From: Bacillota bacterium | Lineage (GTDB): Bacteria > Bacillota > Dethiobacteria > Dethiobacterales > Dethiobacteraceae | Assembly (NCBI GenBank): GCA_012521345.1 | Contig: JAAYMN010000096.1 | Coordinates: 1-64,000 of the forward strand | Length of the DNA: 64,000 bases | Direction of reading: 5' to 3' | Shown: piece after piece, positions 22,298 to 61,579 of the stretch | Position numbering within the stretch: position 1 is the stretch's first letter | Layout of the letters: the number at the start of each line of letters is the position of its first letter | The notes under the pieces: generated by a model | The model's database searches: none | Seen by the model: the letters and a program-made list of their open reading frames with translations, nothing else | Told to the model about the DNA's origin: nothing | Made by a program: the position numbers and the translations under genes

Positions 22298-22326
22298 TTG
22301 TCGTTTGGGATAGGAAATGATAAGAT
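22298..22326 (+). promoter_or_regulatory. Promoter of the two-component genes
   Basis: TTGTCG (22298-22303) is followed after 17 nt by TAAGAT (22321-22326). Transcription would start near 22333, about 25 nt before the chosen kinase start at 22358. Confidence 0.6.
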
Positions 22327-22357
22327 GCGTTTAAGCAGGGCAGCAAGGGGAGGTATT

Positions 22358-23455
22358 ATGAGCGATTTTGCCGATGTAACCGACAGGGCGGTTATTTTTC
22401 TTGCCTGTGTGCTGTTCTTTTTTACCCAGGAGAACTATCCTGCCGGCGTTGCCTCTGTACTTGTGACCGTCATCTTTGGTGGGTTTTTATGCTACTTTGC
22501 CGCTGAGCGGCTAAAAGTACTGCTTGTTGCAGGTTTTGTGCTGCTTGCTTTTTTCTCCCCCGGACTCGTTGTTTTCCTGCCTGTTATTGCCTGTGACATG
22601 CTTTTCTTCAGCCGTCCGTATCTGTATATTTTACTGCTTGTCCCATATATCCATCACCTGCAATCCGGTTTCAGCCAGGGCATGCTTTTAAGCCTGGCAC
22701 TGCTTGTAATCTCGGTTTATCTCACCTGCCGCGGCGGGTTGTATGCAGCTTTGCGGGAGAAACATTACAAGCTGCTTGATGAGGCCAGGGAAATGTCGCT
22801 GCGGCTGGAAAAGCAGAACAGGGAGCTGATGGAAAAACAGGATAACGAGCTGACCATGGCCAAGCTGCAGGAACGCAACCGCATTGCCCGTGAGATTCAT
22901 GACAATGTGGGGCACCTGTTGTCCAGCGCCATCCTGCAAACAGGGGCGTTGCGCACCGTCGCCCGGGACGGGGACATCAAAGCGCGCCTGAACGCTCTCC
23001 ACGATACCTTGGCCCAGGCCATGGACAGCACAAGAAAGAGCGTGCATGCCCTGTATGACGAGGCGATTGATCTCAGGGCGCAGCTGGAAGAATTAATTGC
23101 GCAGTTTGCCTTTTGTGAAATCCGCTTTGAATACGGTTTGGCCGGCAACCCGCCGCTGAAGGTGAAGACTGCTTTCCTTGCCATAATTAAAGAAGCTTTG
23201 GCCAACATGATCAAGCATTCCGACGCTACAAGCGCCTCCGTTGTCTTGCGCGAACATCCCGCGCTTTACCAGTTAATTATCAAAGACAACGGCAGGGTGA
23301 AAAATTATGACCCGGACAGTGGTATGGGGCTGAAAAACATGGTCGACCGCGTCCATTCCCTGCAGGGAATAATCAATATCACGACGGAAGACGGTTTTGC
23401 CATTTTTGTTTCCGTACCGAAGGAGGGAATACAGCTTGAGGGTGCTTATCATTGA
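22358..23455 (+). CDS. NarL-family sensor histidine kinase (LnrJ-like)
   Basis: Membrane sensor kinase of 365 residues. Residues 10-125 contain about five or six short helices with almost no extracytoplasmic loop, as in intramembrane-sensing kinases. A coiled coil (135-170) leads to the HisKA_3 motif RNRIAREIHDNVGHLLSSA with H181. The ATP-binding domain shows KEALANMIKHSDA (N-box), IKDNGRVKN and GMGLKNMVDRV. The start is fixed by GGGGAGG and by the promoter at 22298-22326. The response regulator starts within its last codons. Its divergent partner is an ABC-2 exporter that it probably induces. Confidence 0.87.
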   Translation: MSDFADVTDRAVIFLACVLFFFTQENYPAGVASVLVTVIFGGFLCYFAAERLKVLLVAGFVLLAFFSPGLVVFLPVIACDMLFFSRPYLYILLLVPYIHHLQSGFSQGMLLSLALLVISVYLTCRGGLYAALREKHYKLLDEAREMSLRLEKQNRELMEKQDNELTMAKLQERNRIAREIHDNVGHLLSSAILQTGALRTVARDGDIKARLNALHDTLAQAMDSTRKSVHALYDEAIDLRAQLEELIAQFAFCEIRFEYGLAGNPPLKVKTAFLAIIKEALANMIKHSDATSASVVLREHPALYQLIIKDNGRVKNYDPDSGMGLKNMVDRVHSLQGIINITTEDGFAIFVSVPKEGIQLEGAYH

Positions 23456-24815: not shown

Positions 24816-24861
24816 AATAAAAAAGCACCTCTTTGGAAGGCTACTTCTGAAGAGGTGCTTT
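24816..24861 (-). terminator. Hairpin oriented as a minus-strand terminator between rubrerythrin and ligD
   Basis: A perfect 12-bp stem (24822-24833 with 24850-24861, 16-nt loop) is followed by TTTTTT on the minus strand only. On the plus strand it is preceded by A residues and followed by GCTATAG. It may still end rubrerythrin transcripts weakly. No minus-strand gene reads into it. Confidence 0.6.
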
Positions 24862-24890
24862 GCTATAGGGACGAAAAACCAAGGCGTGTG

Positions 24891-27356
24891 ATGGCAGTGG
24901 CACTGAACGAATATCGGGAAAAAAGGGACTTTGCGCGCTCGCCCGAGCCAGCCGGCGGGGCGGGACAAGAAACTGCCAGACCGGGGCTGCGGTTTGTGGT
25001 GCAAAAGCATTATGCCACGCGGCTGCATTACGACTTGCGCCTGGAGCTGGGCGGCGTCCTCAAAAGCTGGGCAATTCCCAAGGGGCCGACACTGGACCCT
25101 GACGAAAAAAGGCTGGCGGTCTTGGTGGAGGACCATCCTTACGACTATCTTTTTTTTGAAGGGCAAATTCCAGCCGGTGAATACGGGGCCGGGGCGGTTC
25201 TGATCTGGGACGAGGGCACCTACCGGGCAGAAGGCAGTGAGGAGCCAAAGCAGTCTGCCGCCCTGCTCCGGGAAGGGCTGGCCCGGGGCGAGCTGGCCTT
25301 CATCCTGGAAGGCGGCAAATTAAAAGGAAAGTTTGCCTTGGTCAGGATGCAGGACGGCGGCAACAACTGGCTGCTGATAAAAAGGAAAGACGCTTTCGCC
25401 GTAAAAGGATTTTACCCGGAAATGCTGGACGACCCCTTTCCACGGAAAGTAAAACCCATGCTGGCGACGCCCGTTGCCGAACCGTTCAACCACCCCGATT
25501 GGCTTTTTGAAATTAAATTTGACGGCTACAGAACCATTGCCGCCTGCCGCAAAGGCAAGGTTGAGCTTTTTTCCCGCAACCTGCAATCTTTTACCCGGCT
25601 GTTTGCGCCTGTGGCCGAAGCGCTTGCCGGCAGCGTGGATGCCGTTTATGACGGTGAAATTGTGGTCCTGGATGAGGATGGGCGCTCGCGGTTTCAGCTG
25701 CTGCAAAACTACACCCAGGGTGTACCCGGCGAACTGGTTTACTATGTGTTTGATCTTTTATACCTGGAAGGGAGAGACCTGCGCAGCCTCCCCCTGGTGG
25801 CGCGCAAGGAAAAACTGCAGAAATTCCTGCCGCAGCATCCCCGTCTGCAGTATGTCTCCCACCTGGAGGAGGCGGGCAGGGAATTTTTTGCGGCTGCCGC
25901 GGCACATGAGCTGGAAGGTATAATGGCCAAGCAGAAAAACAGCCGCTACCATGAGGGAAAAAGGGTAAAGGAGTGGCTGAAAATTAAAGCTGCCTTGCGG
26001 CAGGAAGCTATTATTTGCGGCTTTACCCGACCCAGGGGCGAAAGGCGCCGTTTCGGGGCGCTTGTTTTGGGCGCCTGCCGGGACGGAGAGCTTGTGCACA
26101 TCGGCAACTGCGGCACCGGGTTTTCCGCGGCCGCGCTGGAGCAGATTTATGCGCTGCTGCAGCCGCTTGTCAGGAAAAAATCGCCTTTTGCCGGCAGGAT
26201 TAAGGGGGAGGATCATATTACCTGGGTCGAACCTGTCTATGTTTGCGAGGTTAAGTTTACCGAGAAAACAAGCGAGGGGCTGCTCAGGCATCCTGTCTTT
26301 CTGGGCATCAAGGAGGGAAAAGCCTGCGCAGCATGCGGTAAGGGGGAAGAATCAATGCACCAAAAAACAGGAAAAGGTGATAAAAAGCTGCATCCGGGCA
26401 AAACCGCCGGACTTGTTGCGGCCGCAGGCAGCAAGGACAGGGAAGTCAGCGTCAACGGCCGGCTGCTGCGGCTGACGAACCTGGACAAAATCTACTGGCC
26501 CGAAGAAGGGTACACCAAGGGTGATGTGATCAATTACTACCACCAGGTCGCACCCTACATCCTGCCCTACCTAAAAGACCGCCCGCAGTCGCTTTACCGG
26601 ACGCCGGACGGCATCTCCGGCGGCGGGTTCTACCAGAAAGACGTCTCCTCCTTTGCGCCGGACTGGGTGGAGACATATGCGGCGCCTGCCCCGGAGGGAG
26701 AAAAAGAAAAGCTATATCTTTTGTGCCAGAATGAACAGACACTGCTTTATATGGCAAACCTGGGCTGCATTGAAATCAACCCCTGGCTTTCCCGCATCCA
26801 AAACCCGGAGCGCCCCGACTACCTGGTACTTGACCTGGATCCGGAGGATATCGGTTTTGACAAGGTAATTGAAGCGGCCCGGGCGGTCCGCGAAGTGCTG
26901 GCATTTGCCGGCATTGCAAGCTTTCCCAAAACCTCGGGAGCGACAGGGCTGCATATTTACCTGCCGCTGGGCGCCAGGTACAACTATGATATTGTCCGGG
27001 AATTTGCCCGCCTGCTGGCTATGCTTGTCCACCGTATGGTGCCTGATTTTACCAGCCTGGAGCGCAGCCCGAAAAAAAGACAGAGAAAGGTTTACCTGGA
27101 CTTTTTGCAAAACCGTCCCGGGCAGACCCTGGCCTCTGTTTACAGTCTCCGCCCCAGGCGCGGCGCCACTGTTTCCACCCCGCTGCTCTGGGAAGAGGTC
27201 AAACCGGGCCTGGACCCGCAAGACTTTACTATTAAAACTGTCCGGAAGCGCCTGCAGCAAAAAGGCGATCTTTTCCGGGGGGTGCTTGGCCCCGGCGTGG
27301 ATATTGCCCAAAGCATTGACAAGCTTAAGGACAACTTGCCCGGGCAGACAGTGTGA
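24891..27356 (+). CDS. ligD: Multidomain ATP-dependent DNA ligase D (phosphoesterase, ligase, polymerase)
   Basis: DNA repair enzyme of 821 residues from the chosen ATG; a GTG at 24855 inside the upstream hairpin is the alternative. Residues 35-160 are the 3'-phosphoesterase domain (KHYATRLHYDLRLELGGVLKSWAIPKGP). Residues 185-475 are the ATP ligase with the adenylated lysine in FEIKFDGYR (K209), VYDGEIVVLDE and EWLKIK. A linker with CAACG leads to the primase-like polymerase domain (about 525-800) with YWPEEGYTKGDVINYY, DLDPED and KTSGATGLHIY. This order matches Pseudomonas LigD rather than Bacillus LigD, which lacks the phosphoesterase. The usual partner Ku is not encoded in the window. Expected role: non-homologous end joining. 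Confidence 0.92.
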   Translation: MAVALNEYREKRDFARSPEPAGGAGQETARPGLRFVVQKHYATRLHYDLRLELGGVLKSWAIPKGPTLDPDEKRLAVLVEDHPYDYLFFEGQIPAGEYGAGAVLIWDEGTYRAEGSEEPKQSAALLREGLARGELAFILEGGKLKGKFALVRMQDGGNNWLLIKRKDAFAVKGFYPEMLDDPFPRKVKPMLATPVAEPFNHPDWLFEIKFDGYRTIAACRKGKVELFSRNLQSFTRLFAPVAEALAGSVDAVYDGEIVVLDEDGRSRFQLLQNYTQGVPGELVYYVFDLLYLEGRDLRSLPLVARKEKLQKFLPQHPRLQYVSHLEEAGREFFAAAAAHELEGIMAKQKNSRYHEGKRVKEWLKIKAALRQEAIICGFTRPRGERRRFGALVLGACRDGELVHIGNCGTGFSAAALEQIYALLQPLVRKKSPFAGRIKGEDHITWVEPVYVCEVKFTEKTSEGLLRHPVFLGIKEGKACAACGKGEESMHQKTGKGDKKLHPGKTAGLVAAAGSKDREVSVNGRLLRLTNLDKIYWPEEGYTKGDVINYYHQVAPYILPYLKDRPQSLYRTPDGISGGGFYQKDVSSFAPDWVETYAAPAPEGEKEKLYLLCQNEQTLLYMANLGCIEINPWLSRIQNPERPDYLVLDLDPEDIGFDKVIEAARAVREVLAFAGIASFPKTSGATGLHIYLPLGARYNYDIVREFARLLAMLVHRMVPDFTSLERSPKKRQRKVYLDFLQNRPGQTLASVYSLRPRRGATVSTPLLWEEVKPGLDPQDFTIKTVRKRLQQKGDLFRGVLGPGVDIAQSIDKLKDNLPGQTV

Positions 27357-27475
27357 AAGCTGCGCACAACAAAAAAGTTTTCGGGGCGGGTTTGCTTTAG
27401 TGTGCAGCAGGGGAGACGGTTCAGGCAATCCATAAAAAATACTGATATATTTTTACCAGCCAAGTGTTGACAATT

Positions 27476-28842
27476 ATGGAGGATTTTTGTGCGGCAGGTG
27501 GAATTAATCAATTTATTTTAGATAAAGAAATTGCCCGGGGGAGGAGTTTCGAAGAAAAAATGAAAGCGGTCATAGGCGACGACTTGACGTTTCCTGCCGG
27601 ATCACAGTTAGAATCATTCAGAAAATCCGGTATACCATTTATTCGTGATATTCCATGGGGAACTCATCTTAGCGTTTTTTATGAGAGTGATGACGATTTG
27701 CCGGCGCTTGCCATTCCCTTTCTTGCGACCGGACTGGAAAACAATGAATTTTGTATCTGGATTGTTGATGATTCTTTGTCACCCTCTGCAGCTTTGCAAT
27801 TGCTGCAAAAAAATGTGCCTGCTTTAAAGCGGACACAAATCGAAGTCATGACGCCTGCTGACTGGTATTTGCAATATGGAGGCTTTCGGGGTGACAGAAT
27901 TATTGCCGGCTGGATTGAAAAAATAGAAGCCGCGCTTGCCCAGGGATATGAAGGGATAAGGGTGTGCGGCAGTACTGCATGGCTGAGAGAAAAACACTGG
28001 AAAAAGTTTCTGGCTTATGAGCAGGAAATACAGAAAGCAATCGGTTTCCTTAAGTTAATCGCCTTGTGCCCGTATCAGTTGAGTAAATGTGAATTGCCGG
28101 ACATTCTGGATATAGTGCGGAACCATCACTTTTCTTTTTTAAAAAATAATATTGACTGGAAATACCTAAACAGTACAACCAGCTATGAGCATGTTAATCT
28201 TATGGGAAAAATGGCGGCCAACGTGGCACATGAAATCAGAAACCCTCTGACTACTGTGAGAGGGTTTATCCAGCTGTTGGGAAAAAAATACGAGCTGTCT
28301 CTTTATCGAGATTATTTTACATTAATGCTTGAAGAGCTGGACCGCGCCAACGTCACTATTGCCGAGTATCTCTCCCTGACAAAAGAGCTGGAAAAAGACA
28401 TCAAACTGCATGATTTGAATGAAATTGTTCATACCATCCTGCCTTTACTGCAGGCAGATGCTGTAACGGAAGGCAAAGACGTGGTTTTTCCGCCGGAGAA
28501 ACTGCGGAGATTGCTGTGGATGCCAGGGATCTCAGGCAGGTAATATATAATCTTGTGCGCAACGGCCTGGAAGCAATGAAAAAAGGCGGGCGCGTCAGTA
28601 TCCGGACATATCAGTGCGGTAAAGCCGTTCTCCTGGAGATAGCGGACACGGGAGGCGGGATCCCGAGAGAAGTTATGGATGATTTGGGCGAACCTTTTGT
28701 TACCACAAAAAAATTTGCCGCGGGATTGGGGCTGGCTGTCAGTATAAGAATTTTGCAGCGTTATCACGCCGGGATAACAGTCCAGTCTTCCCCGCACGGG
28801 ACGACCTTTACTATTGCTTTTCCCCTGCCGGACAATAACTAG
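27476..28842 (+). pseudogene. MEDS-domain sensor histidine kinase split by a frameshift
   Basis: Soluble sensor kinase interrupted by a one-base shift. The first frame (to a stop at 28543) encodes a MEDS domain (IPWGTHLSVFYES, AIPFLATGLENNEFCIWIVDD, YGGFRGDRIIAGW) followed by a HisKA motif, MAANVAHEIRNPLTTVRGF. The ATPase domain continues in another frame, readable from about 28489, as VDARDLRQVIYNLVRNGLEAM, DTGGGIP and GLGLAVSI, ending at 28842. The switch lies near TTTTT at 28485-28489, where one missing T would explain it. Sequencing error, a recent mutation or slippage are possible. The start is uncertain (ATG 27476 or GTG 27464). MEDS domains were described in sensors of one-carbon and methanogenic metabolism. 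Confidence 0.8.
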
Positions 28843-29729
28843 GACTTGTGCTTTGCCGTCTGCAGGCCGGAGAAGCTGCCTGCCAAACCGAGCAGGGCAC
28901 TCAGAAGGATGACAAAGACAGCCAGCTTCAGCACCAGGCTGCCAAGCGGCGGCAGGGGAAGAAAGGGAAGAGGCCCCTCGATTCTGAGAAAAAGATAACG
29001 CAGGGCAAAACCGGCCAAAACGGCGGCCAGCATGCCGCCCCCCACGCTCAAAAACAAGCCTGTTAGCAGGAAGGGGAAGGCGATAAAACTGTCCGGCGCA
29101 CCCAAAAGGAGCAGGGTGTTGATTTGTTCTCTGTTGTTCTCAATGCCGGTCCTGATCAGGTGCGAAATGATCACCAGCGTGGAAACGCCGACAGCGGTGA
29201 TAATGAGATAACCCAGCAATCTTACCGCTCCCGCCAGCTGTCTCAGGCGCTCCAGAACTTCCCGGTTGTCGCGCACGTATTCAATGCCATCCGTCTGCTG
29301 CACTGCCTGCAGCACCTGTTCCATTGCGGCAAGGTCGATCCTGATTTCAAGAAACGGGCTGAAGGGGTTGTCGTCAAAGTATGTCAGCACGCGTGCCTCT
29401 TTGCCCAGTATTTCTTCCATTCTTTTGTAGGCTTCCTCGGCACTGACCGGCAATACTTCCTTCACACCGGCAATGTTTTGTATCTCTTCCGCCAGGCGGA
29501 GGACAGCGTTGCCGGGCATGTCTTCCGCATAATACGCGCTTATTTCCGCTTCATTTTCGATTGCGGCAATTGCATGATTGCCGACCCACCAGCCGGCCAG
29601 CACCATAGCTAAAAGCAAAAAAATCAGGGCCATACTGAAAAAAGAGGTTAAGTGGGACAGCAGGTTCATGCGCATGATGACGCCCGCCTCACGGAGAAAG
29701 TAGCCAAAATTATACCGCAGTTGTTTCAT
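28839..29729 (-). CDS. ftsX: Cell division protein FtsX
   Basis: Membrane subunit of the FtsEX complex, 296 residues. One N-terminal helix (about 21-45) is followed by an extracytoplasmic domain (50-165) with the family-typical VKEVLPVSAEEAYKRMEEILG, then three C-terminal helices (170-200, 220-250, 260-290). Its ATG follows the FtsE stop directly. The complex uses ATP in the cytoplasm to control a cell-wall enzyme or its activator outside; here the likely partner is encoded just upstream of ftsE. It converges on the frameshifted kinase gene, with stop regions nearly touching. Confidence 0.92.
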   Translation of the reverse strand: MKQLRYNFGYFLREAGVIMRMNLLSHLTSFFSMALIFLLLAMVLAGWWVGNHAIAAIENEAEISAYYAEDMPGNAVLRLAEEIQNIAGVKEVLPVSAEEAYKRMEEILGKEARVLTYFDDNPFSPFLEIRIDLAAMEQVLQAVQQTDGIEYVRDNREVLERLRQLAGAVRLLGYLIITAVGVSTLVIISHLIRTGIENNREQINTLLLLGAPDSFIAFPFLLTGLFLSVGGGMLAAVLAGFALRYLFLRIEGPLPFLPLPPLGSLVLKLAVFVILLSALLGLAGSFSGLQTAKHKS

Positions 29730-31644: not shown

Positions 31645-32577
31645 CTAATCACCTAAAAAATTCGTTCCCAGCACTCCCGCAACAATCAGCAGGGAGCCGA
31701 GAAAATGGTAGTAAAACAGCTTTTCTTCCAGGAAGACAATCCCGGCCAGGACTGTAATCAGTGTGCCGAGATTGGCAAAGACGCTCATTTTGGCGGCTTT
31801 GAGATGGGTTAAAACATAGTTTGTCAAAAGTGAAGTAAGGGCTGTGGACAAGACGCCCAGGTAGAGGATGGCAAAAAGGAAAGGCAGGCTCTTGAGCGGG
31901 GCAAGAAAGGCGGGAAGAGTGCCGCCCTGCAAATGTTGACCGAGAGCAAGCAGGTTAAAGCTGATAAAACCGAGAAAAATCATCAGACAGCTTAATTCCA
32001 GGTTGCTGAATTCCCTTGTGAGCACTCTGGCCAGTACGTTATAGCCGGCAATGGACAGGGCGGAAAGCAGGATGAGGATGATGCCTTTCACATTATGCAT
32101 GCTCGGGCCGGAGCCGCTTTGCACAAGGATAAAAATAACACCTCCCACCGACAAGAAAACAGACAGCATCTGGCGGGAATTGGTTTTTTCCCTGATAAAC
32201 AGGGAAGCTAAGAGTAGGGTGAAAATGGGGGAAACCGCCAGGAGGATCCCGGCTTCCGAGGAGAGGACGTACTGAAGGCCGTATGTCTGGAAGCCAAAAA
32301 ACAGCAAGGGATAAAAAAGGGCCAGCGGCAGGATTCTGCTTACTTTTTTCCTGTCATAGGTGAGTTTGACTTTTTGCAGCAGGGCGGGCAGGAGCAGGGC
32401 TGCAAAAGCGGCCGTGAAGCGATGGGCCAGGATATCTACCGGACCGGTAACCTGCAGGGCAATTTTATTAAACAGAAAAGAGAAGCCGATAATGACAGAA
32501 TAAGCAACTGCCGCCCCGTAGACTTTCCAGGCGGCTGTACGCCCGGCTGCAGTTGCTGCTTGCGCCCTCTCGTCCAT
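31645..32577 (-). CDS. DMT-superfamily EamA transporter
   Basis: Inner-membrane transporter of 310 residues with ten predicted helices in two EamA repeats (about 20-150 and 165-305). Typical segments are ILAHRFTAAFAALLLPALL, the SSEAGILLAVSPIFTLLLASLF end of repeat one, and TNYVLTHLKAAKMSVFANLGTLITVLAGIVFLEEKL in repeat two. The ATG at 32577 is chosen since a G-rich element lies 8-9 nt upstream; an in-frame GTG at 32586 overlaps it. It stands alone between the ftsEX operon and a divergent pseudouridine synthase gene. Relatives export amino acids, nucleosides or metabolites; the substrate is unknown. Confidence 0.87.
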   Translation of the reverse strand: MDERAQAATAAGRTAAWKVYGAAVAYSVIIGFSFLFNKIALQVTGPVDILAHRFTAAFAALLLPALLQKVKLTYDRKKVSRILPLALFYPLLFFGFQTYGLQYVLSSEAGILLAVSPIFTLLLASLFIREKTNSRQMLSVFLSVGGVIFILVQSGSGPSMHNVKGIILILLSALSIAGYNVLARVLTREFSNLELSCLMIFLGFISFNLLALGQHLQGGTLPAFLAPLKSLPFLFAILYLGVLSTALTSLLTNYVLTHLKAAKMSVFANLGTLITVLAGIVFLEEKLFYYHFLGSLLIVAGVLGTNFLGD

Positions 32578-32742
32578 AAGAAGCACCCCCGTGTTGTTTT
32601 TGCTTTAGTGTTCCCGTGCCTGCAGCAACTTCCTTCTGCACCGGCACAGGAAATACCTTCATTAGTAGCTTAACCGAAAATAAAATTTAACGGAGCGGCG
32701 CTTGCGGGAAGCCGCCGCTTGCGGCATGCAGGGAGACGGACA

Positions 32743-36243: not shown

Positions 36244-37557
36244 ATGCTAAGATGGATACGTTCCGGCTGGATCCGTTTCTGGTTCAGTGCGCAGATGGCC
36301 TGGCACGGAATTTTGGCCAATCCCCTGCGCTCGGCGCTGACAATTCTGGGCGTCACTATCGGCGTGGCGGCCGTGGTGAGCCTGATGGGAATCGGCGAGG
36401 GAGCCCGCCAGGCGGTGGTCAACCAGTTTAAGAGCCTGGGCGCCAATGTGATTGTCGTGAAGGCAACAGACCCGGAGGCGGAATTTGCTGCGGACTACGC
36501 CGACCAGATCGCCGAAATGGTCCCGCAGCTGCAGCAGGTAACACCCGTTGTCTACGGGGAAGCGACTGTCCGCTGGCGGCGTGAGCGGGGGCTTGCCCAG
36601 CTTTTGGGCGTCAACAGCGACTTTCCTGAAATCAGGGATCATCCTGTCATCTCCGGGCACTTTCTGTCCGCCCTACACATTGAACAGCGTTCACAAGTGG
36701 TTGTGCTGGGCTACAATATAGCCGTGGGCCTGATGGGAGGGCGCAGCCCGGTCGGGCAGACGCTGACGCTGGACGGCCGCACTTTCCGCATTATTGGCGT
36801 ACTGGCGCCCAAGGGCCCCAACCAGGCCGAAGGGATTGACGATAAATTTGTGATTCCCTATACTACCGCCCTGCAACTGACCAAAAAAAAGACGGTGCCG
36901 GAGATATGGGGCAAGGCGGCGTCCGCCGTTGATGCGGAACTGGCCACGGTACAGCTGGGGCGGATTATCTCGCGGGAACTCGGGCTCGATCCCAAGGCGC
37001 CTGTCCGCACTCCGGGCGAAGACGGCGGCGAGAGCCCGGCTATGCCGGATATGCCCATTGTGGAACCTGTCCCGGAACAGCCTGAGACCGGCAATACTGG
37101 CATTAAAAAAGGCAGGGACCTGGTTACGATTACTAACCTGAACCAGCTTGTCCAGGAAGCCGACAAGGCCAACAGGGTCATGACACTGCTTTTAGGCGGG
37201 ATTGCCGCTGTCAGCCTCTTGGTAGGCGGGCTCGGAATCATGAATATTATGCTGGTGGCAGTGACGGAGAGAACAAAAGAAATCGGCGTCAGGAGGGCGC
37301 TGGGCGCCAAACAGACAGATTTGATTACCCAGTTCATGCTGGAAGCGTTTTATTTAAGCGCAATCGGCGCCATTGCCGGCGTGGCGGCCGGTATCTGGGG
37401 CACCAGTCTCTTTGCCCAGTATGGTTTCGAAACCGCCATCAGCATCCAGGCGATTCAGATTGCCGCCGGGGTCGCCCTGGCCACCGGCCTGCTCTTTGGC
37501 ATTTACCCGGCGATTTCCGCTTCCTCGGTGCCGCCGGTGGAGGCGTTGCGCAGATAA
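36244..37557 (+). CDS. MacB/FtsX-family ABC efflux permease
   Basis: Membrane permease of 437 residues. An N-terminal helix following NPLRSALTILGVTIGVAAVVSL is the MacB signature, a large extracytoplasmic MacB_PCD domain spans about 50-300, and three C-terminal helices include the VTERTKEIGVRRALGAK coupling segment and end in SASSVPPVEALR. AAGGGGTGA precedes the ATG, 12 nt after the adaptor gene. Together with the two upstream genes it forms a MacAB-like exporter for peptides, antibiotics or lipids. A strong terminator closes the operon. Confidence 0.9.
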   Translation: MLRWIRSGWIRFWFSAQMAWHGILANPLRSALTILGVTIGVAAVVSLMGIGEGARQAVVNQFKSLGANVIVVKATDPEAEFAADYADQIAEMVPQLQQVTPVVYGEATVRWRRERGLAQLLGVNSDFPEIRDHPVISGHFLSALHIEQRSQVVVLGYNIAVGLMGGRSPVGQTLTLDGRTFRIIGVLAPKGPNQAEGIDDKFVIPYTTALQLTKKKTVPEIWGKAASAVDAELATVQLGRIISRELGLDPKAPVRTPGEDGGESPAMPDMPIVEPVPEQPETGNTGIKKGRDLVTITNLNQLVQEADKANRVMTLLLGGIAAVSLLVGGLGIMNIMLVAVTERTKEIGVRRALGAKQTDLITQFMLEAFYLSAIGAIAGVAAGIWGTSLFAQYGFETAISIQAIQIAAGVALATGLLFGIYPAISASSVPPVEALRR

Positions 37558-37567
37558 GGAAAAAAAT

Positions 37568-37604
37568 ACCCGGTGAGCTTACCTGCTGCACCGGGTTGTT
37601 TTTT
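37568..37604 (+). terminator. Intrinsic terminator of the efflux operon
   Basis: ACCCGGTG (37568-37575) pairs with CACCGGGT (37589-37596), followed by TGTTTTTT. It starts 11 nt after the permease stop. Confidence 0.88.
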
Positions 37605-37692
37605 CCCCTGCCTTTGTTTTGCCGCCGCCCGGGCAGGGATAAGCGGAGAAGGCGACGAAAGTTACAAGGGGTATGCCGGCCGGCATGCTCCG

Positions 37693-38310
37693 CTATGCTT
37701 TTTTTACCGGCTGGCGCAGGATTGTTTTCAGTTTTTTCGGTTCAGTCCTTGCGGGATCATTGAGGTAAATCTCATGATGCTTGCCGGCAGGCTCGTATCC
37801 TTGCTCCTTAATAAATGCATGCAAGCGCGAGACGGTTTCCTGTTCTTCGCTGTAAGGCCCCCGATGCAAAATCTGGGCGCAGAGGCCTTCATTGTATTGG
37901 CCAAGGCCTATCTCCGCCAGGATGCCGAAAGCTTTTTTCCTTGCCACCTGCTCCTTGGCCGCAAGCAGGAGCTCTTCCGTAACCAAGGTGGGCTGCATGA
38001 TCATGGCAAGCCAATGCAAGTTTTCTTTTTTGTCCGGGGAAAATTCCCGGCTTCCTTCAGTCCACCACAATCCTTCCAGCGGCATTACCTGGTAATCAAT
38101 CTGCAGGGGACCTTTCTTAATCATGAATTTTAAAGTGTAAGAGAGGCTGAAAAGGGCTGCAACTGCTTCCTGATAGCGCTCGCTCGTGTTCGGGTCGCCT
38201 TTGCCCAAAACCATCAGGTAGTTCAGGGCAGGAACAGTGACGAAAGCGGCCCGGGTGGCGGAAGCGCTGTAGAGTACCTTATGCTCTTTGCGATAGTCCA
38301 GTTTAATCAT
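37693..38310 (-). CDS. GyrI-like small-molecule-binding domain protein
   Basis: Soluble protein of 205 residues with the SRPBCC-unrelated GyrI-like fold of the COG4832 type. Visible features are FVTVPALNYLMVLGKGDPN near the start, FSLSYTLKFM, PLEGLWW and ILHRGPYSEEQETVSRLHAFI near the end. These domains bind small drugs or hydrolyse small esters; some are linked to MerR regulators, but here no DNA-binding part is present. The start codon is near the divergent reductase operon, with a 133-nt gap holding a GC-rich inverted repeat. It is the only minus-strand gene between two plus-strand units. Confidence 0.85.
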   Translation of the reverse strand: MIKLDYRKEHKVLYSASATRAAFVTVPALNYLMVLGKGDPNTSERYQEAVAALFSLSYTLKFMIKKGPLQIDYQVMPLEGLWWTEGSREFSPDKKENLHWLAMIMQPTLVTEELLLAAKEQVARKKAFGILAEIGLGQYNEGLCAQILHRGPYSEEQETVSRLHAFIKEQGYEPAGKHHEIYLNDPARTEPKKLKTILRQPVKKA

Positions 38311-38443
38311 TCTTGTCCCTCCGGTCGCCTTATGCCTTGTTTTTCCCGCCTGCCGGCACGGCGGCAGGATTCTGCCCTGGCATTCCGGCAGTCGGCATCA
38401 CGGGGCATAAACCTATAAACTTATATTTTCAGGGGAGATGAGT

Positions 38444-40438
38444 ATGGCCAAATATAAGCATCTTTTTTCACCTATTGTACTGGGCGGGCAGTATTTCCGC
38501 AACAGAATTTTCAATTCTCCCACAGGCGCCTGCCAGGTTCCCTTCGAGAGCTTTGTCAGCTATTATGAAAGGAAGGCTATGGGCGGAGCGGCCGCCGTCT
38601 GCATCGGCGACGCTTGTCCTTCCCCGGACGGCATGGCCCGCCCGGGCCAGATCAGGCTGTGGGATAAAAACACCAGGCCGAACCTGATTGAGGTTGCTTA
38701 TGCCATCAGGCGACACGGCGCGGTGCCGTCCATGGAGATCGTCCATGGCGGAAACTGTTCCTACTATGCCCACGAAAACGGCTACCAGCCCTACGGGCCT
38801 GTCGCCGGCCTGACTCCCTTCGGGCAAGAGATACGGGAGGTGCCGGAAGAGGTGATCCTCCAGTACATAGAGGCTTTTGCCCGGGCGGCGGCGTTTGCCA
38901 AAAGCTGCGGCTACGGCATGGTGACCGTTCACGGCGGCCACGGCTGGCTGCTTACCCAGTTTTTCGCCAAAACAAACAACCGCAGGGACAAGTGGGGCGG
39001 CACCCCGGAAAACAGGGCGCGCCTGGCCGTTGCCATCTGCGACCGCATCCATCAGGTCTGCGGCCGGGACTTTCCGGTAGAAATCAGGATTACCGGCTCC
39101 GAAGTTTATGAAGGCGGCTACGGGATAGAAACAGGCATTGAGCAGGCCGTTTTCCTGGACGGCCATGCGGACCTTATTCATGTTTCCGCCGGCAGCCACG
39201 AAGTTGATGATGTATTTACCGTCACCCATCCCAGCATGTTTCTCCCGGACGGTGTGAATGTCAAGTTTGCGGCGGAAATAAAAAAACATGTCAGGCAGAC
39301 GCCCGTTGCCACCGTCGGCGCCCTTTCCGAGCCGGAACTGCTGGAGGAAATTATTGCTTCCGGCAAGGCCGATGTGGTTGAACTGGCGCGCGGCCTGATT
39401 TGCGACCCGGACCTGCCCGCCAAGCTGCAGGCGGGGAGGGATGACGAAGTCAGGAAGTGTATGCGCTGCCTGTGGTGTTTTTCCCACAGGATGCAGCGGG
39501 AGAAAATAGTCTGCGCCCTCAACCCTGAAATCGGCAATGAAGCGGAGTGCAAAAACAGCGGCGGGCCCGCGGCGGTCCGCAAGAAAGTCTTGATTGTCGG
39601 GGGCGGCGTTGCCGGCATGCAGGCGGCCCTCACCTGTGCGGAAAGAGGCCACAGTGTTATTTTGTGCGAAAAGCAGGACAGGCTCGGCGGCGTCCTGCTG
39701 TGCGAGGAAAAGGTGCCTTTCAAAGAAAAACTTGGCCAGTACCTGGCCTTGCAAGCGAGGCTGATAGAGCGCAACAGGAACATACAACTTTTCCTGGAGA
39801 CGGAAGTCACGCCGGCTGCGGCTTCAAACTTTGCTCCCGATGTAATTGTTGCCGCTCTGGGGTCCCGTCCCGTTGTACCGGGGATTCCCGGCATTGACAG
39901 GGAAAATGTTTTCCCCGCCCAGGCTTTGTTCCGCCGGCCTGAGCTGGCCGGCAAGAGGGTTGTCATTCTGGGCGGCGGGCTGGTGGGCATGGAGCTTGCC
40001 GTTTACCTGTCCATGCTGGGCCGGGAGTGTACCATCCTGGAGCTGCAGCCCGAGTTAAACGACGGCGGCAACAACCTGCACGGCCTTGCCCTCAGCCAGG
40101 AATTCCGGAAATTCGGCATCCGCATCAGCACGGCTACCAAGGCGGTTGAGATTAACGACCGGGGAGTGGTCGGGCAGTTTACAGGCTGCCTGCCGCAAAA
40201 CAGCGACAGGCGTTTTGGCCTTCCCGCCTATTACCCGGAGGCTGCGGCCGGCAGCAAGCTTTTTGCCTGCGATACCGTGGTTTATGCCGTGGGGCAGGTG
40301 CCGCTGCGGGCGGAGGCGGAAGCCCTGCGTGACTGCGCCGGGGAATTTCACCTGCTCGGCGACTGTGTGACGCCGGCAAATATCTGGTACTCCACTACCG
40401 CCGCCTACTTCCTCGGCAGGAATATCGGCCGCTGCTGA
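38444..40438 (+). CDS. Old Yellow Enzyme-type NADH:flavin oxidoreductase with FAD/NAD domain
   Basis: Iron-sulfur flavoenzyme of 664 residues in the 2,4-dienoyl-CoA/2-enoate reductase group. Residues 1-330 form the FMN-binding TIM barrel (HGGHGWLLTQFF, RITGSE, VELARGLICDPDLP). CMRCLWC (about 342-348) with a later Cys binds a 4Fe-4S cluster. Residues 385-660 carry FAD and NAD sites (VLIVGGGVAGMQAA and VVILGGGLVGMELA). The ATG at 38444 is preferred over 38438 because GGGGAG directly abuts the earlier codon. The HG-x-H segment around residue 170 replaces parts of the usual substrate site, so the substrate is open. It is a single-gene unit convergent with a 2-hydroxyacid dehydrogenase gene. Confidence 0.88.
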   Translation: MAKYKHLFSPIVLGGQYFRNRIFNSPTGACQVPFESFVSYYERKAMGGAAAVCIGDACPSPDGMARPGQIRLWDKNTRPNLIEVAYAIRRHGAVPSMEIVHGGNCSYYAHENGYQPYGPVAGLTPFGQEIREVPEEVILQYIEAFARAAAFAKSCGYGMVTVHGGHGWLLTQFFAKTNNRRDKWGGTPENRARLAVAICDRIHQVCGRDFPVEIRITGSEVYEGGYGIETGIEQAVFLDGHADLIHVSAGSHEVDDVFTVTHPSMFLPDGVNVKFAAEIKKHVRQTPVATVGALSEPELLEEIIASGKADVVELARGLICDPDLPAKLQAGRDDEVRKCMRCLWCFSHRMQREKIVCALNPEIGNEAECKNSGGPAAVRKKVLIVGGGVAGMQAALTCAERGHSVILCEKQDRLGGVLLCEEKVPFKEKLGQYLALQARLIERNRNIQLFLETEVTPAAASNFAPDVIVAALGSRPVVPGIPGIDRENVFPAQALFRRPELAGKRVVILGGGLVGMELAVYLSMLGRECTILELQPELNDGGNNLHGLALSQEFRKFGIRISTATKAVEINDRGVVGQFTGCLPQNSDRRFGLPAYYPEAAAGSKLFACDTVVYAVGQVPLRAEAEALRDCAGEFHLLGDCVTPANIWYSTTAAYFLGRNIGRC

Positions 40439-49406: not shown

Positions 49407-49850
49407 CTAGGACAAAATTTTTCCCATCAGGCTGATAATGGTATTGCATGCATGGAAAAACTGCTCCCGCTCGGCGGCGGAAAGCACGCTAAACTTGGCG
49501 TCAAAGTATTGCCTGATGGCGGCATCAAGCTCCCTGACGTAGGCTTTCCCTTTGGCCGTTAATTCCAGAATGGTTTTCCGCTTGTCCGCAGCGTCCGGTT
49601 TGCGTATCAGGTAGTCCATTGTTTCCAGCGTATCCACGATATGTGTAAATGAGCCCTTTTCGACGCCGGTAAATTTGCTTAACTCGGTCATGCATTTGTC
49701 GTGATGCATGTTCACTGCGATCAGTGTTCGCTCCTGTGATTTATTGAGCAAGCGGGCGGATTCCTGTTTCCAGAAGCCGTCCAGGAGTTCAAATTTCAAA
49801 CGGGGAATGGCCCACAGCAGCTTGAGCAACTGAGCTTCCGATATTTCCAC
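49407..49850 (-). CDS. MarR-family transcriptional regulator
   Basis: Winged-helix repressor of 147 residues. The N-terminal dimerisation helices are followed by SQERTLIAVNMHHDKCMTELSKFTGVEKGSFTHIVDTLETMDYLIRKPDAADKRKTILELTAKG, the MarR recognition helix and wing (D-x-R-K). The single Cys near the DNA-binding part could sense oxidants. The start is followed upstream by a 221-nt gap with no other gene; no obvious operator was found. It is a single-gene unit, so the controlled gene is unknown. Neighbours are aroD (convergent) and a polysaccharide deacetylase. Confidence 0.88.
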   Translation of the reverse strand: MEISEAQLLKLLWAIPRLKFELLDGFWKQESARLLNKSQERTLIAVNMHHDKCMTELSKFTGVEKGSFTHIVDTLETMDYLIRKPDAADKRKTILELTAKGKAYVRELDAAIRQYFDAKFSVLSAAEREQFFHACNTIISLMGKILS

Positions 49851-50071
49851 ATGCGCACCTCATTTCGCGTGGCAGTTTGCATAACAACCATGCTTTCATA
49901 TTATAGCTGAAATCACGCGCCGGCAACAAGCTTTTTGGCAAATTTCCCGCAGGCAGCCGTTCTGATGGGCGGCTTTTGCGCGCTTGTGGCCCTGCGGCTC
50001 CTGCTTTTGGCCGCTGTAGAGTGCCTCGGCCGGGCAGCTTGCCACGCAGGTGGCATAATCCGGTTGTCAGG

Positions 50072-57228: not shown

Positions 57229-59847
57229 ATGCTGTCCAAGGATATCCGTTCCACTTTTTTAGAATTTTTCCGGGGAAAAGACCACCTAGTCCTCCCCAGT
57301 TTTTCCCTGATTCCGCAAAATGATCCTACACTGCTTTTGATTGGTGCCGGTATGGCACCGTTAAAACCGTTTTTTACCGGAGAAAAAAAACCGCCCCATC
57401 CCCGGGTGGCAACATGCCAGAAATGCTTGCGCACACCGGATATTGACCGTGTGGGGCGCACCTCTCGCCATGCCACATTTTTTGAAATGCTGGGCAATTT
57501 TTCTTTTGGCGATTATTTTAAGGAGGAAGCCATCGAGTGGGCCTGGGAACTGGTAACAACAGGCTATAAACTGCCGGAGGACAGGCTCTACGTCAGCATT
57601 TACCGGGATGACGACGAAGCATTTGAGATCTGGCATAAAAAAATCGGCCTGCCTGCCGGTCGCATTTACCGGCTGGGCAAGGAAGACAACTTCTGGGAGA
57701 TCGGCACCGGGCCGTGCGGGCCCTGTTCGGAGATCTACTACGACCTGGGGCCCGAGCGGGGCTGCGGCCGGCCAAACTGCGATGTAGGCTGCGACTGCGA
57801 CCGCTACCTGGAAATCTGGAACCTGGTGTTTACACAGTTTAACTGCTGCGAGGACGGCACCTACCAGCCGCTGGCCCAGCGCAATATTGACACCGGGGCC
57901 GGGCTGGAGCGCATGGCACTGGTTTTGCAGGGCGTGAACAACCTCTTTGAAATTGACACGGTACGGCCGCTTTTGCAGCATTTTTGCAACGCCACCGGCC
58001 GGGAATACGGCAAAGACGCGCAGGATGACGTATCGCTTAGGATTTTGACGGAACATTTGCGCGGTATCTGTTTTTTGATCGGCGACGGTGTGCTGCCGGG
58101 CAACGAGGGGCGGGGCTATGTCCTGCGCAGGCTTTTGCGGCGCGCTGTCCGCCACGGCAGACTGCTTGGCAGGGACGAGCCCTTCCTTTACCGGGCTGTG
58201 GACCTGGTGGTGGACGAGTACGGAGCCTTTTATCCCGAGCTGCAAAGAGGGCGTGAATATATAACCAAGGTCGTCCGCCTGGAGGAGGAGCGCTTCCACG
58301 AAACCCTGGAGCAGGGGATGAAGATCCTCTCGGAAATGATGGCCGCCACGGGCGGAAACGGCGTTTTTGCCGGGGCGGATGCCTTTAAGCTGTACGATAC
58401 CTACGGCTTTCCCATTGATTTGACGCGGGAAATTGTGGAAGAAAACGGCCTTACCCTGGACGAAGCTGGTTTTCAGGCGGCCCTGGAGGAACAGCGCCTG
58501 CGCGCCCGCAGCGCCCGCAGCGCCGGCGCTTTTGGCGCAGGAGACGCCGCCTACCAGGATATTAAAGGCCTGGAAACAGTTTTTACCGGCTATGATGAAC
58601 TGCAGACAACAGCGGAAGTGCTGGCCATCCTGCAGGACGGCAGGCGCGTGGCACAGGCAAAAGCGGGTGAAGAAGCGGAGGTGGTGCTTGCCGCCACCCC
58701 GTTTTACGGCGAGCGCGGCGGCCAGGTAGGGGACAAGGGTGTATTTGTTTCGGAAAATGCCAGGGCTGAAATTGGCGATGCAAAAGTGGCACCCGACGGC
58801 CAGATCATACACCTGGCCCGGATTACGGAAGGCGTACTGAAGACGGGCGACATGGTGCAGACCGTTGTGGAGGACGGAAGAAGGCGTGCCGTCTGCCGGA
58901 ATCATACGGCCACCCATCTGTTGCACAAGGCGTTGAAAGAAGTGTTGGGCGAGCATGTGCAGCAGGCCGGCTCCCTGGTGGCCCCGGAGAGGCTGCGCTT
59001 TGACTTTACCCATTTACATGCGCTTACAGCCGAGCAGCTGCAGGACGTGGAGGAACGCGTCAATGCCGTTATCTGGGAAAATCCTCCCGTCAATGTTACC
59101 CTGGCCACGCTGGATGAGGCCAAAGCCATGGGCGCCACCGCCCTTTTTGAGGAAAAATACGGCGATAAAGTGCGTGTCATTCGTGTCGGCGACTACAGCA
59201 TGGAACTGTGCGGCGGAACGCATGTCCGGAGTGCGGGAGAGATCGGTCTTTTTAAAATTATTGCCGAGTCCGGCATCGGCGCCGGCCTGCGGCGGATAGA
59301 AGCACTGACAGGCGCCGCCGCTTACGAGTGGTTTGCCGAACGCAGCAGGCTCCTGGAAGAAGCGGCCGCCCGGCTGAAAAGCGAGCCGCTGCAGGTGCCG
59401 GAAAAGATCGCCGGCCTGCAGCAGGAGTTGAAGGAGTTGCAGCGTGAAAACCAGAAACTCCAGCTAAAACTGGCCGGCATGGAAGTTGACGGCCTGCTTG
59501 AGCGGGTTCAGGAGACGGGCGGCGTCCCGGTTTTAAGCGCCAGGGTAAACGCCGGCAATATGGAAACCCTGCGCGAAATGGCAGACCGTCTGAAACAGAA
59601 AATCGGCTCCGGTATTATTGTGCTTGGCGCCGTGGCCGAAGGCAGGGTACTTTTGGTGGGCGCCGCCACGCCCGACCTGGTAAAGGCAGGTTTTCATGCC
59701 GGCAAGCTGATCGGTGAAGTGGCCAAGCTGACGGGCGGCGGCGGCGGCGGGCGGCCGGATATGGCCCAGGCCGGCGGCAAAGAGCCCGGCCGCCTGGATG
59801 AGGCTCTTAAAAGTGTTGCTGATTTGGTGCAAAAGCAGAAACAGTGA
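57229..59847 (+). CDS. alaS: Alanyl-tRNA synthetase
   Basis: Full-length enzyme of 872 residues that charges tRNA-Ala. The class II core (1-250) has motif 1 ([18 protein letters not shown]) and motif 2 ([20 protein letters not shown]), with motif 3 ([13 protein letters not shown]) near 225-237. The editing domain carries [12 protein letters not shown] and CGGTHV (zinc). The C-terminal region is a coiled coil ([19 protein letters not shown]) and DHHA1 domain with [15 protein letters not shown]. The ATG at 57229 follows GGGAGGG; an upstream ATG lacks a site. Expression comes from the promoter at 57168-57197 and no T-box is present. Confidence 0.97.
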
Positions 59848-60182: not shown

Positions 60183-61130
60183 ATGGAGTATCGTACCCTG
60201 GGAAAGACGGGAATCCGTGTTTCCCGTCTTTGTTTTGGCACACTGACACTGGGGCCCCTGCAAAGCAACCTCCCTCTGGAACAGGGGGCGGACTTGCTTG
60301 TCCGCGCCATGGACCGGGGAGTTACTTTTTTTGATACGGCGGACTTGTACGGGACCTACCCGTATCTCCGCGTGGCCATGCAAAAGAGCGGCAAAAGGCC
60401 TGTTATTGCCTCTAAGTCGTATGATTATACGCGTGAAGGCATGCAAAAAAGCCTGCGGCGGGCGCTGGCGGAACTGGACTTGCCAAGCATTGACGTTTTT
60501 CTTTTACATGAACAGGAATCGGCCCTGACGCTGGCGGGCCACCGTCCCGCCCTGGAATACCTGCTGGAAGCCAAGGCACAGGGCCTGGTGCGCGCCGTTG
60601 GCTTCTCCACGCATCATATCGCTGCCGTGCGCGCCGCCCTTACCATGCCGGAAATTGATGTTGTCCACCCCCTGCTCAATCTGGACGGCGTCGGTATTGT
60701 GGACGGGACGGTGGCGGAAATGCTGGCCGCCATAAACGATTTGCATGCACAGGGGGTTGGCATCTTTGCCATGAAGCCGCTGGGAGGCGGCCACCTGATC
60801 GGCAAAAGCGAGGAAGCTTTGCGCTTCGTCCTGGCGCAGCCATGCCTGGATGCCATAGCAGTAGGCATGCAAACGGAAGCGGAAATTGATTACAACTGCG
60901 CGCTCTTTGCGGGCGGGCAGCCGCCCCCGGCACAAAAAGAAGCGCTGCGCAAAAGCAAAAGACGCCTGCACGTCCAGGACTGGTGCCGCGGCTGCGGCAA
61001 TTGTACCGGCCACTGCCCGCAGCAGGCGCTGAAGGTCGTGGCAGGCAAGGCTGCGGTTGACGAGGAAGCTTGTGTCCTCTGCGGCTACTGCGGGGCGTAC
61101 TGCCCGGATTTTTGCCTGAAAATCTACTAG
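60183..61130 (+). CDS. Aldo/keto reductase with C-terminal double ferredoxin domain
   Basis: Oxidoreductase of 315 residues. The TIM-barrel (1-255) has GKTGIRVSRLCFGTLTLG, the catalytic DTADLYGTY with Asp and Tyr, Lys in ASKSYD and His in LLHEQ. The barrel is followed by CRGCGNCTGHC and CVLCGYCGAYC, two 4Fe-4S sites. Such fusions belong to the ferredoxin-linked reductases of anaerobes. It starts 3 nt after ireB and so interrupts the usual ireB-ruvX neighbourhood. NADPH-dependence and substrate are unknown. The Fe-S part may allow ferredoxin as electron donor. Confidence 0.9.
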   Translation: MEYRTLGKTGIRVSRLCFGTLTLGPLQSNLPLEQGADLLVRAMDRGVTFFDTADLYGTYPYLRVAMQKSGKRPVIASKSYDYTREGMQKSLRRALAELDLPSIDVFLLHEQESALTLAGHRPALEYLLEAKAQGLVRAVGFSTHHIAAVRAALTMPEIDVVHPLLNLDGVGIVDGTVAEMLAAINDLHAQGVGIFAMKPLGGGHLIGKSEEALRFVLAQPCLDAIAVGMQTEAEIDYNCALFAGGQPPPAQKEALRKSKRRLHVQDWCRGCGNCTGHCPQQALKVVAGKAAVDEEACVLCGYCGAYCPDFCLKIY

Positions 61131-61144
61131 CGCGAGGTTAGGAC

Positions 61145-61579
61145 ATGCGCATTATGGGTTTGGATGTAGGGGACCGCACCATCGGTGTGGCCGTGAGTGA
61201 TGAGCTGGGCTGGACCGCCCAAGGCATAGAAGTTATTCGCCGCACTGACTGGCTGGCAGACCTGCAGCGGCTGAAACAACTTGCCGGGCAGTATCAGGTT
61301 TCCCTCATTGTGGTGGGGTACCCACTGAACATGAACGGCACCGCCGGCCCGCGGGCGGAAATGGCGGCGGAGTTTGCCAACCGGCTGCAGGAAGAACTGG
61401 GCGTGCCTGTCTGCTTGTGGGACGAGCGCCTGACAACACTGGAAGCGGAACGCATGCTGATTGCCGCCGATATCAGCAGGGCAAAGCGGCGGAAAGTAAT
61501 TGACAAAATGGCGGCCGTCCTGATCCTGCAGAATTATCTTCAGGCCCATTCCGGCGCCGGGCCGGATAAAAACCGGTAA
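61145..61579 (+). CDS. ruvX: Holliday junction resolvase-like protein RuvX/YqgF
   Basis: RNase H-fold nuclease of 144 residues. [23 protein letters not shown] near the start holds the first acidic residue, VGYPLNMNG the central segment, and [14 protein letters not shown] with [13 protein letters not shown] the remaining active-site residues. In E. coli YqgF acts in pre-16S rRNA 5' end processing. The start is 14 nt after the aldo/keto reductase. It is in the conserved Bacillota cluster with ireB and DUF1292. Confidence 0.93.

Follow-up and report, generated by a model that had tools for sequence, protein, structure and literature searches.

A broken gene for a MEDS-domain histidine kinase lies in the 64,000-nucleotide stretch of a Dethiobacteraceae genome analysed here (the whole stretch is called the window; its own genome is G000). 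As summarised in Table 1, the MEDS and HisKA domains share one frame, whose ORF ends at 28543, while the HATPase_c domain is encoded in the -1 frame by an ORF that ends at 28842 (ORF calls and domain search). An earlier note had described a MEDS histidine kinase broken at a run of T, and the present analysis bears this out. The run TTTTT is read directly at 28485-28489, the halves are one frame apart, and the break falls within 28481-28489. Both flanks of the break can be aligned to the DNA of a congener (G001), and over nearly the whole gene, starting at 27560, the only gap that changes the frame is found at 28481-28489. No other stop codon or frame break was found in the kinase gene. Since both halves match one continuous G001 protein of 428 aa, a chance pairing of ORFs is excluded. 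The final ~18 residues of the MEDS-HisKA ORF are out of register relative to the ancestral protein.

The MEDS domain scores 128-130 bits against a cut-off of 29.8, and a profile search of the genome returned it as the single match to PF14417. The HisKA domain, with its phospho-acceptor histidine, scores 47.6 bits (cut-off 26.9). The HATPase_c domain reaches 80.2 bits, but it belongs to a polypeptide separate from HisKA. The two halves had been called intact in different frames; the frames do differ, and the ATP-binding half is complete yet noncanonical. The canonical G2 box motif is GxGxG. In the window the first glycine of this box is gone (GTGLGL to AAGLGL), and the motif fails the canonical pattern. 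G001 and all four of the more distant relatives that reach this region in the alignment have GTG at the corresponding places; G056 ends at a contig edge before the region and is outside this count. The change in the G2 box could by itself be a tolerated variant.

The gene had also been taken to start at 27476. This is 84 bases too far upstream, because the aligned stretch of G001 contains two in-frame stops and the G001 start aligns with the ATG at 27560, the likely start. The sequence from 27464 to 27560, including GTGTTGACAATTATGGA and GGTGGAATTAAT, is well conserved with G001, yet in G001 it does not form a single open frame. Judged from the sequence, it may possibly contain a conserved leader or promoter.

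Table 1. Features of the kinase locus and its two neighbours (positions in the window)
Feature	Position	Strand	Detail	Basis
LigD (DNA ligase D), left neighbour	24855..27356	+	flank kept in G001 and G002	Pfam on G002 orthologue
Probable ribosome-binding site GGGGGAGGAG	27537..27546	+	13 bases 5′ of ATG 27560	direct reading, inference
MEDS-HisKA open frame	27560..28543	+	likely start ATG 27560, stop TAA 28541-28543; 327 residues	ORFs, G001 alignment
MEDS sensory domain PF14417	27662..28126	+	E 6.6e-38	
HisKA PF00512, H-box AHEIRNP	28202..28384	+	phospho-acceptor His codon 28229-28231	domain search, direct reading
Frame break GTGGTTTTT	28481..28489	+	net -1 base relative to intact orthologue	direct reading, G001 alignment
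GGAG-N6-GTG, possible restart site for the HATPase_c fragment	28506..28518	+		direct reading, inference
HATPase_c PF02518	28519..28830	+	-1 frame, ORF 28516-28842	domain search
ATP lid / G2 box	28708..28734	+	KKFAAGLGL in the window, KGSGTGLGL in G001	alignment
FtsX-like, right neighbour	28839..29729	-	convergent with the kinase; stop overlaps the kinase stop by 4 bases; flank kept in G001 and G002	

The locus in congeners and the type of kinase

The unbroken form of the kinase is known from the congener G001 (C125, L003). Its orthologue has the domain order MEDS-HisKA-HATPase_c and is located between ligD and ftsX as in the window. The right neighbour is called FtsX-like by the character of its sequence and by its ATPase neighbour. 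The G001 orthologue is 75% and 81% identical to the two window halves, and the kinase DNA of the two species differs at 215 of 1284 aligned bases. It is one unbroken frame with the G2 box GTGLGL, in contrast to the broken frame and AAGLGL of the window. In the sister species G002, ligD (L066 4725-7163) adjoins ftsX (L066 3746-4636) with 88 bases between the stops. No kinase remnant was found at this G002 junction, and the significant match to the window comes from the flanks alone. Across the three congeners, the ligD-ftsX junction (24855-28839 in the window) thus has the kinase whole, broken or absent. Since the gene is whole in G001 and missing from G002, the break is confined to the window lineage or to its assembly.

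Full-length relatives were found in only 4 of the 58 other genomes searched (G001, G008, G011 and G056), 3 of them among the 18 genomes of the same family, and the gene is therefore patchy in distribution. G008 and G011 share a kinase neighbourhood, which is unlike that of the window. The AHEIRNP H-box occurs in two other whole kinases of the window's genome. As that genome still has other kinases of this H-box type and the sister species lives without this one, the kinase is expendable. No response-regulator gene was found next to it. The intact gene is best read as an orphan, soluble MEDS-HisKA-HATPase_c histidine kinase.

KinB and KinD of bacilli are sporulation kinases of the HisKA class with an H-box of the AHEIRNP type. 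The named models closest to the HisKA half include KinD (E 9e-21), and the solved structures closest to the ATPase half include that of KinB, 3d36 (E 3e-16). The window halves score 73.8 and 88.9 bits, far below the cut-off of 775 bits of the KinD equivalog in NCBIfam, and the relation is therefore one of likeness to the sporulation kinases and not of membership. The window kinase also differs from KinB and KinD in having MEDS as its sensor and a broken frame. Nevertheless, the H-box, the KinD model and the KinB structure match suggest a catalytic core near those of sporulation-type kinases. Spo0A is encoded in the genome, and the host is probably spore-forming. Anantharaman and Aravind (2005) are said to have predicted that MEDS senses simple hydrocarbon derivatives.

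MEDS kinases with the same three-domain order in the alignment were found in Sporotomaculum syntrophicum (L033) and Syntrophomonas sp. UBA9860 (L032). They are unbroken and 42-49% identical, but they have other genomic surroundings with no recognised ligD or ftsX neighbour, the neighbours having been viewed without a family search. An orphan cytosolic MEDS histidine kinase, MA2082 of Methanosarcina acetivorans, is reported in passages of PMC11784639 to have time-dependent autokinase activity. As described in those passages, MA2082 resembles the window gene in combining MEDS with a histidine kinase and in being cytosolic and orphan, while it is archaeal and unbroken. In the literature searched on MEDS kinases, sporulation-kinase pseudogenes and split kinases, no title describing the window gene was found.

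Constraint on the kinase gene and a census of frame breaks

The dN/dS between the window and G001 is 0.35 for the N-terminal half of the kinase and 0.28 for the C-terminal half. The values of 17 neighbouring genes (0.05-0.21) and of 6 orthologous HisKA kinases (0.06-0.13) are all below these, and the window kinase is the least constrained of the 24 gene pairs compared. For the kinase control, seven G001 stretches were fetched, and orthologues of 6 of the 9 other kinases of the window's genome were identified in them; one G001 stretch, L090, was dropped because the motif filter found no kinase in it, and it may hold the orthologue of one of the 3 unmatched.

Codon models were fitted to six sequences, G056 being left out because it is cut by a contig end. 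With these six, the branch dN/dS was 0.30 for the window and 0.41 for G001, which is no difference. The test is weak and does not assign the relaxation to the window side, in part because the outgroups are distant. Fixing both branches at 0.12 was rejected (lnL -7141.61 versus -7120.76), while fixing the window branch at 1.0 was not (lnL -7121.67). Holding the window at 0.12 with G001 free (lnL -7124.29) was worse than holding G001 at 0.12 with the window free (lnL -7122.98). Derived replacements leaned towards the window over G001, 27 to 20 (p 0.38) and 10 to 3 (p 0.09), but neither excess was significant. At sites invariant in 4 outgroups, there were 4 departures on the window side and 3 on the G001 side. 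The gene is thus relaxed in the pair as a whole, and inactivity of the window copy may extend over part, though not most, of its separate history. In a drift simulation, about 80 neutral substitutions left the gene without a stop with a probability of 0.05. As drift soon yields a stop and no further stop or frame break is present, any inactive period must have been short. A long-dead pseudogene was considered and discarded on the same grounds.

A census compared the gene models of G001 and G002 with the window, where matches were obtained for 29 of 35 models (G001:C125), 23 of 25 (G001:C13) and 31 of 40 (G002). The kinase was the sole split gene with domain support. The other split or stop-bearing matches are models that lie opposite Pfam-supported genes or have no Pfam support. 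Stops upstream of the likely true start explain RuvX (61070-61576), a MarR-like regulator (49413-49958) and the sensor kinase at 22298. A further odd match in the census, with a 118-aa model at 37555-38514, was regarded as spurious. Each of the nine other HisKA kinases in the genome forms one open frame with its HATPase_c domain.

Some observations were made on the rest of the window. At 22298-23455, a sensor kinase with a response-regulator gene after it occupies a single frame in the window, and its counterpart in G001 (L059/L060) has gaps of -1 and -2; thus, a different kinase looks broken in G001. Likewise, a 313-aa gene at 31645-32586, which by eye resembles a transporter gene, has a single frame in the window and two in G001. 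A 9-base tandem array of 3.8 copies at 58492-58524 was the only array found in the window. A search of Rfam over the window found no RNA families, and no second copy of the junction was found in viral_contigs (0 matches).

Possible origins of the break

I consider it probable that the inactivation is real and recent and that it hit a dispensable orphan MEDS kinase of the sporulation type. The most serious competitor, which is unlikely though far from negligible, is that a base was lost from the homopolymer during sequencing or consensus calling and that the living population carries an unbroken gene. The genome is a draft of 130 contigs, the break is located in a homopolymer, and the remainder of the gene is open with a dN/dS well below 1; in addition, the related draft G001 has frame breaks of its own, and such drafts evidently contain indels, real or not. 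Against this, the kinase is the only gene model proven split across the window, and three longer A7 runs within the same gene are in frame. Moreover, the break coincides with the G2-box change in the same protein, and the gene that it affects is the least constrained of the 24 compared, where a random assembly error would seldom land, which favours a real loss. The earlier note had left sequencing or assembly error, fresh mutation and phase variation side by side; on this evidence a fresh mutation is preferred to an error, and phase variation is disfavoured. Phase variation would make the T-run a reversible switch between the on and off states of the kinase, operated by slippage. A single-base change in the homopolymer would indeed switch the frame, the intact G001 gene has a run of seven T at the same place, and an open frame in Sporotomaculum contains a T5 located two to four codons upstream. 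However, the tract is only T5, shorter than the A7 runs, and there is no long hypermutable tract at the switch point; a T-run of at least five is absent there in 4 of the 5 more distant relatives, and no other split gene suggests a genome that switches in this way. I therefore regard phase variation as very improbable.

Two further possibilities, which would leave the broken gene functional, are both exceedingly doubtful. Programmed -1 frameshifting or transcriptional slippage would fuse the halves into one protein. The sequence GGAAGG is present 9 bases upstream, and the T-run together with the bases after it can fold into a short GC-rich stem (z -1.4), but its stability is unremarkable, as 16 of 200 shuffled sequences fold as well. 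By reasoning, GTT-TTT would re-pair poorly in the -1 frame, and G001 and the 5 more distant relatives examined are unbroken across the junction. No recoding site is conserved. Neither the downstream RNA fold nor the junction in relatives thus supports a programmed frameshift or slippage. Alternatively, the halves might work as a split kinase, in which MEDS-HisKA would serve as a phospho-acceptor or as a phosphate sink in the sporulation relay and HATPase_c, restarted from the GTG at 28516, would cooperate in trans. The start-like GGAG-N6-GTG directly 5′ of HATPase_c fits this idea, but the unsplit G001 gene contains the identical GGAG/GTG sequence. The HATPase_c fragment is short, lacks one glycine of the G2 box and, by the fold of the domain, begins inside its first strand. 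Split kinases do exist, and CheA3/CheA4 of Rhodobacter sphaeroides are a precedent described in passages of PMC3591291.

Recent inactivation is thus preferred, and the following course of events may be envisaged. In the intact kinase, MEDS would sense a small molecule, the H-box histidine would be autophosphorylated, and the phosphate would be passed to a response regulator, which by the H-box type is probably Spo0F or Spo0A. The gene was already weakly constrained in the genus and is expendable. It was probably inactivated, and recently, when a single-base change shifted the frame in the linker that joins the phosphotransfer domain to the ATP-binding domain. The main product of the broken gene would be MEDS-HisKA without the ATPase domain, which would not autophosphorylate by itself. 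Since automated pipelines may list the two halves as two proteins, caution is needed in annotation.

The locus offers a view of sensor-kinase turnover, with the same gene in three states among three congeners. It also adds a minor data point on the sensory inputs that a probable spore-former can afford to lose.
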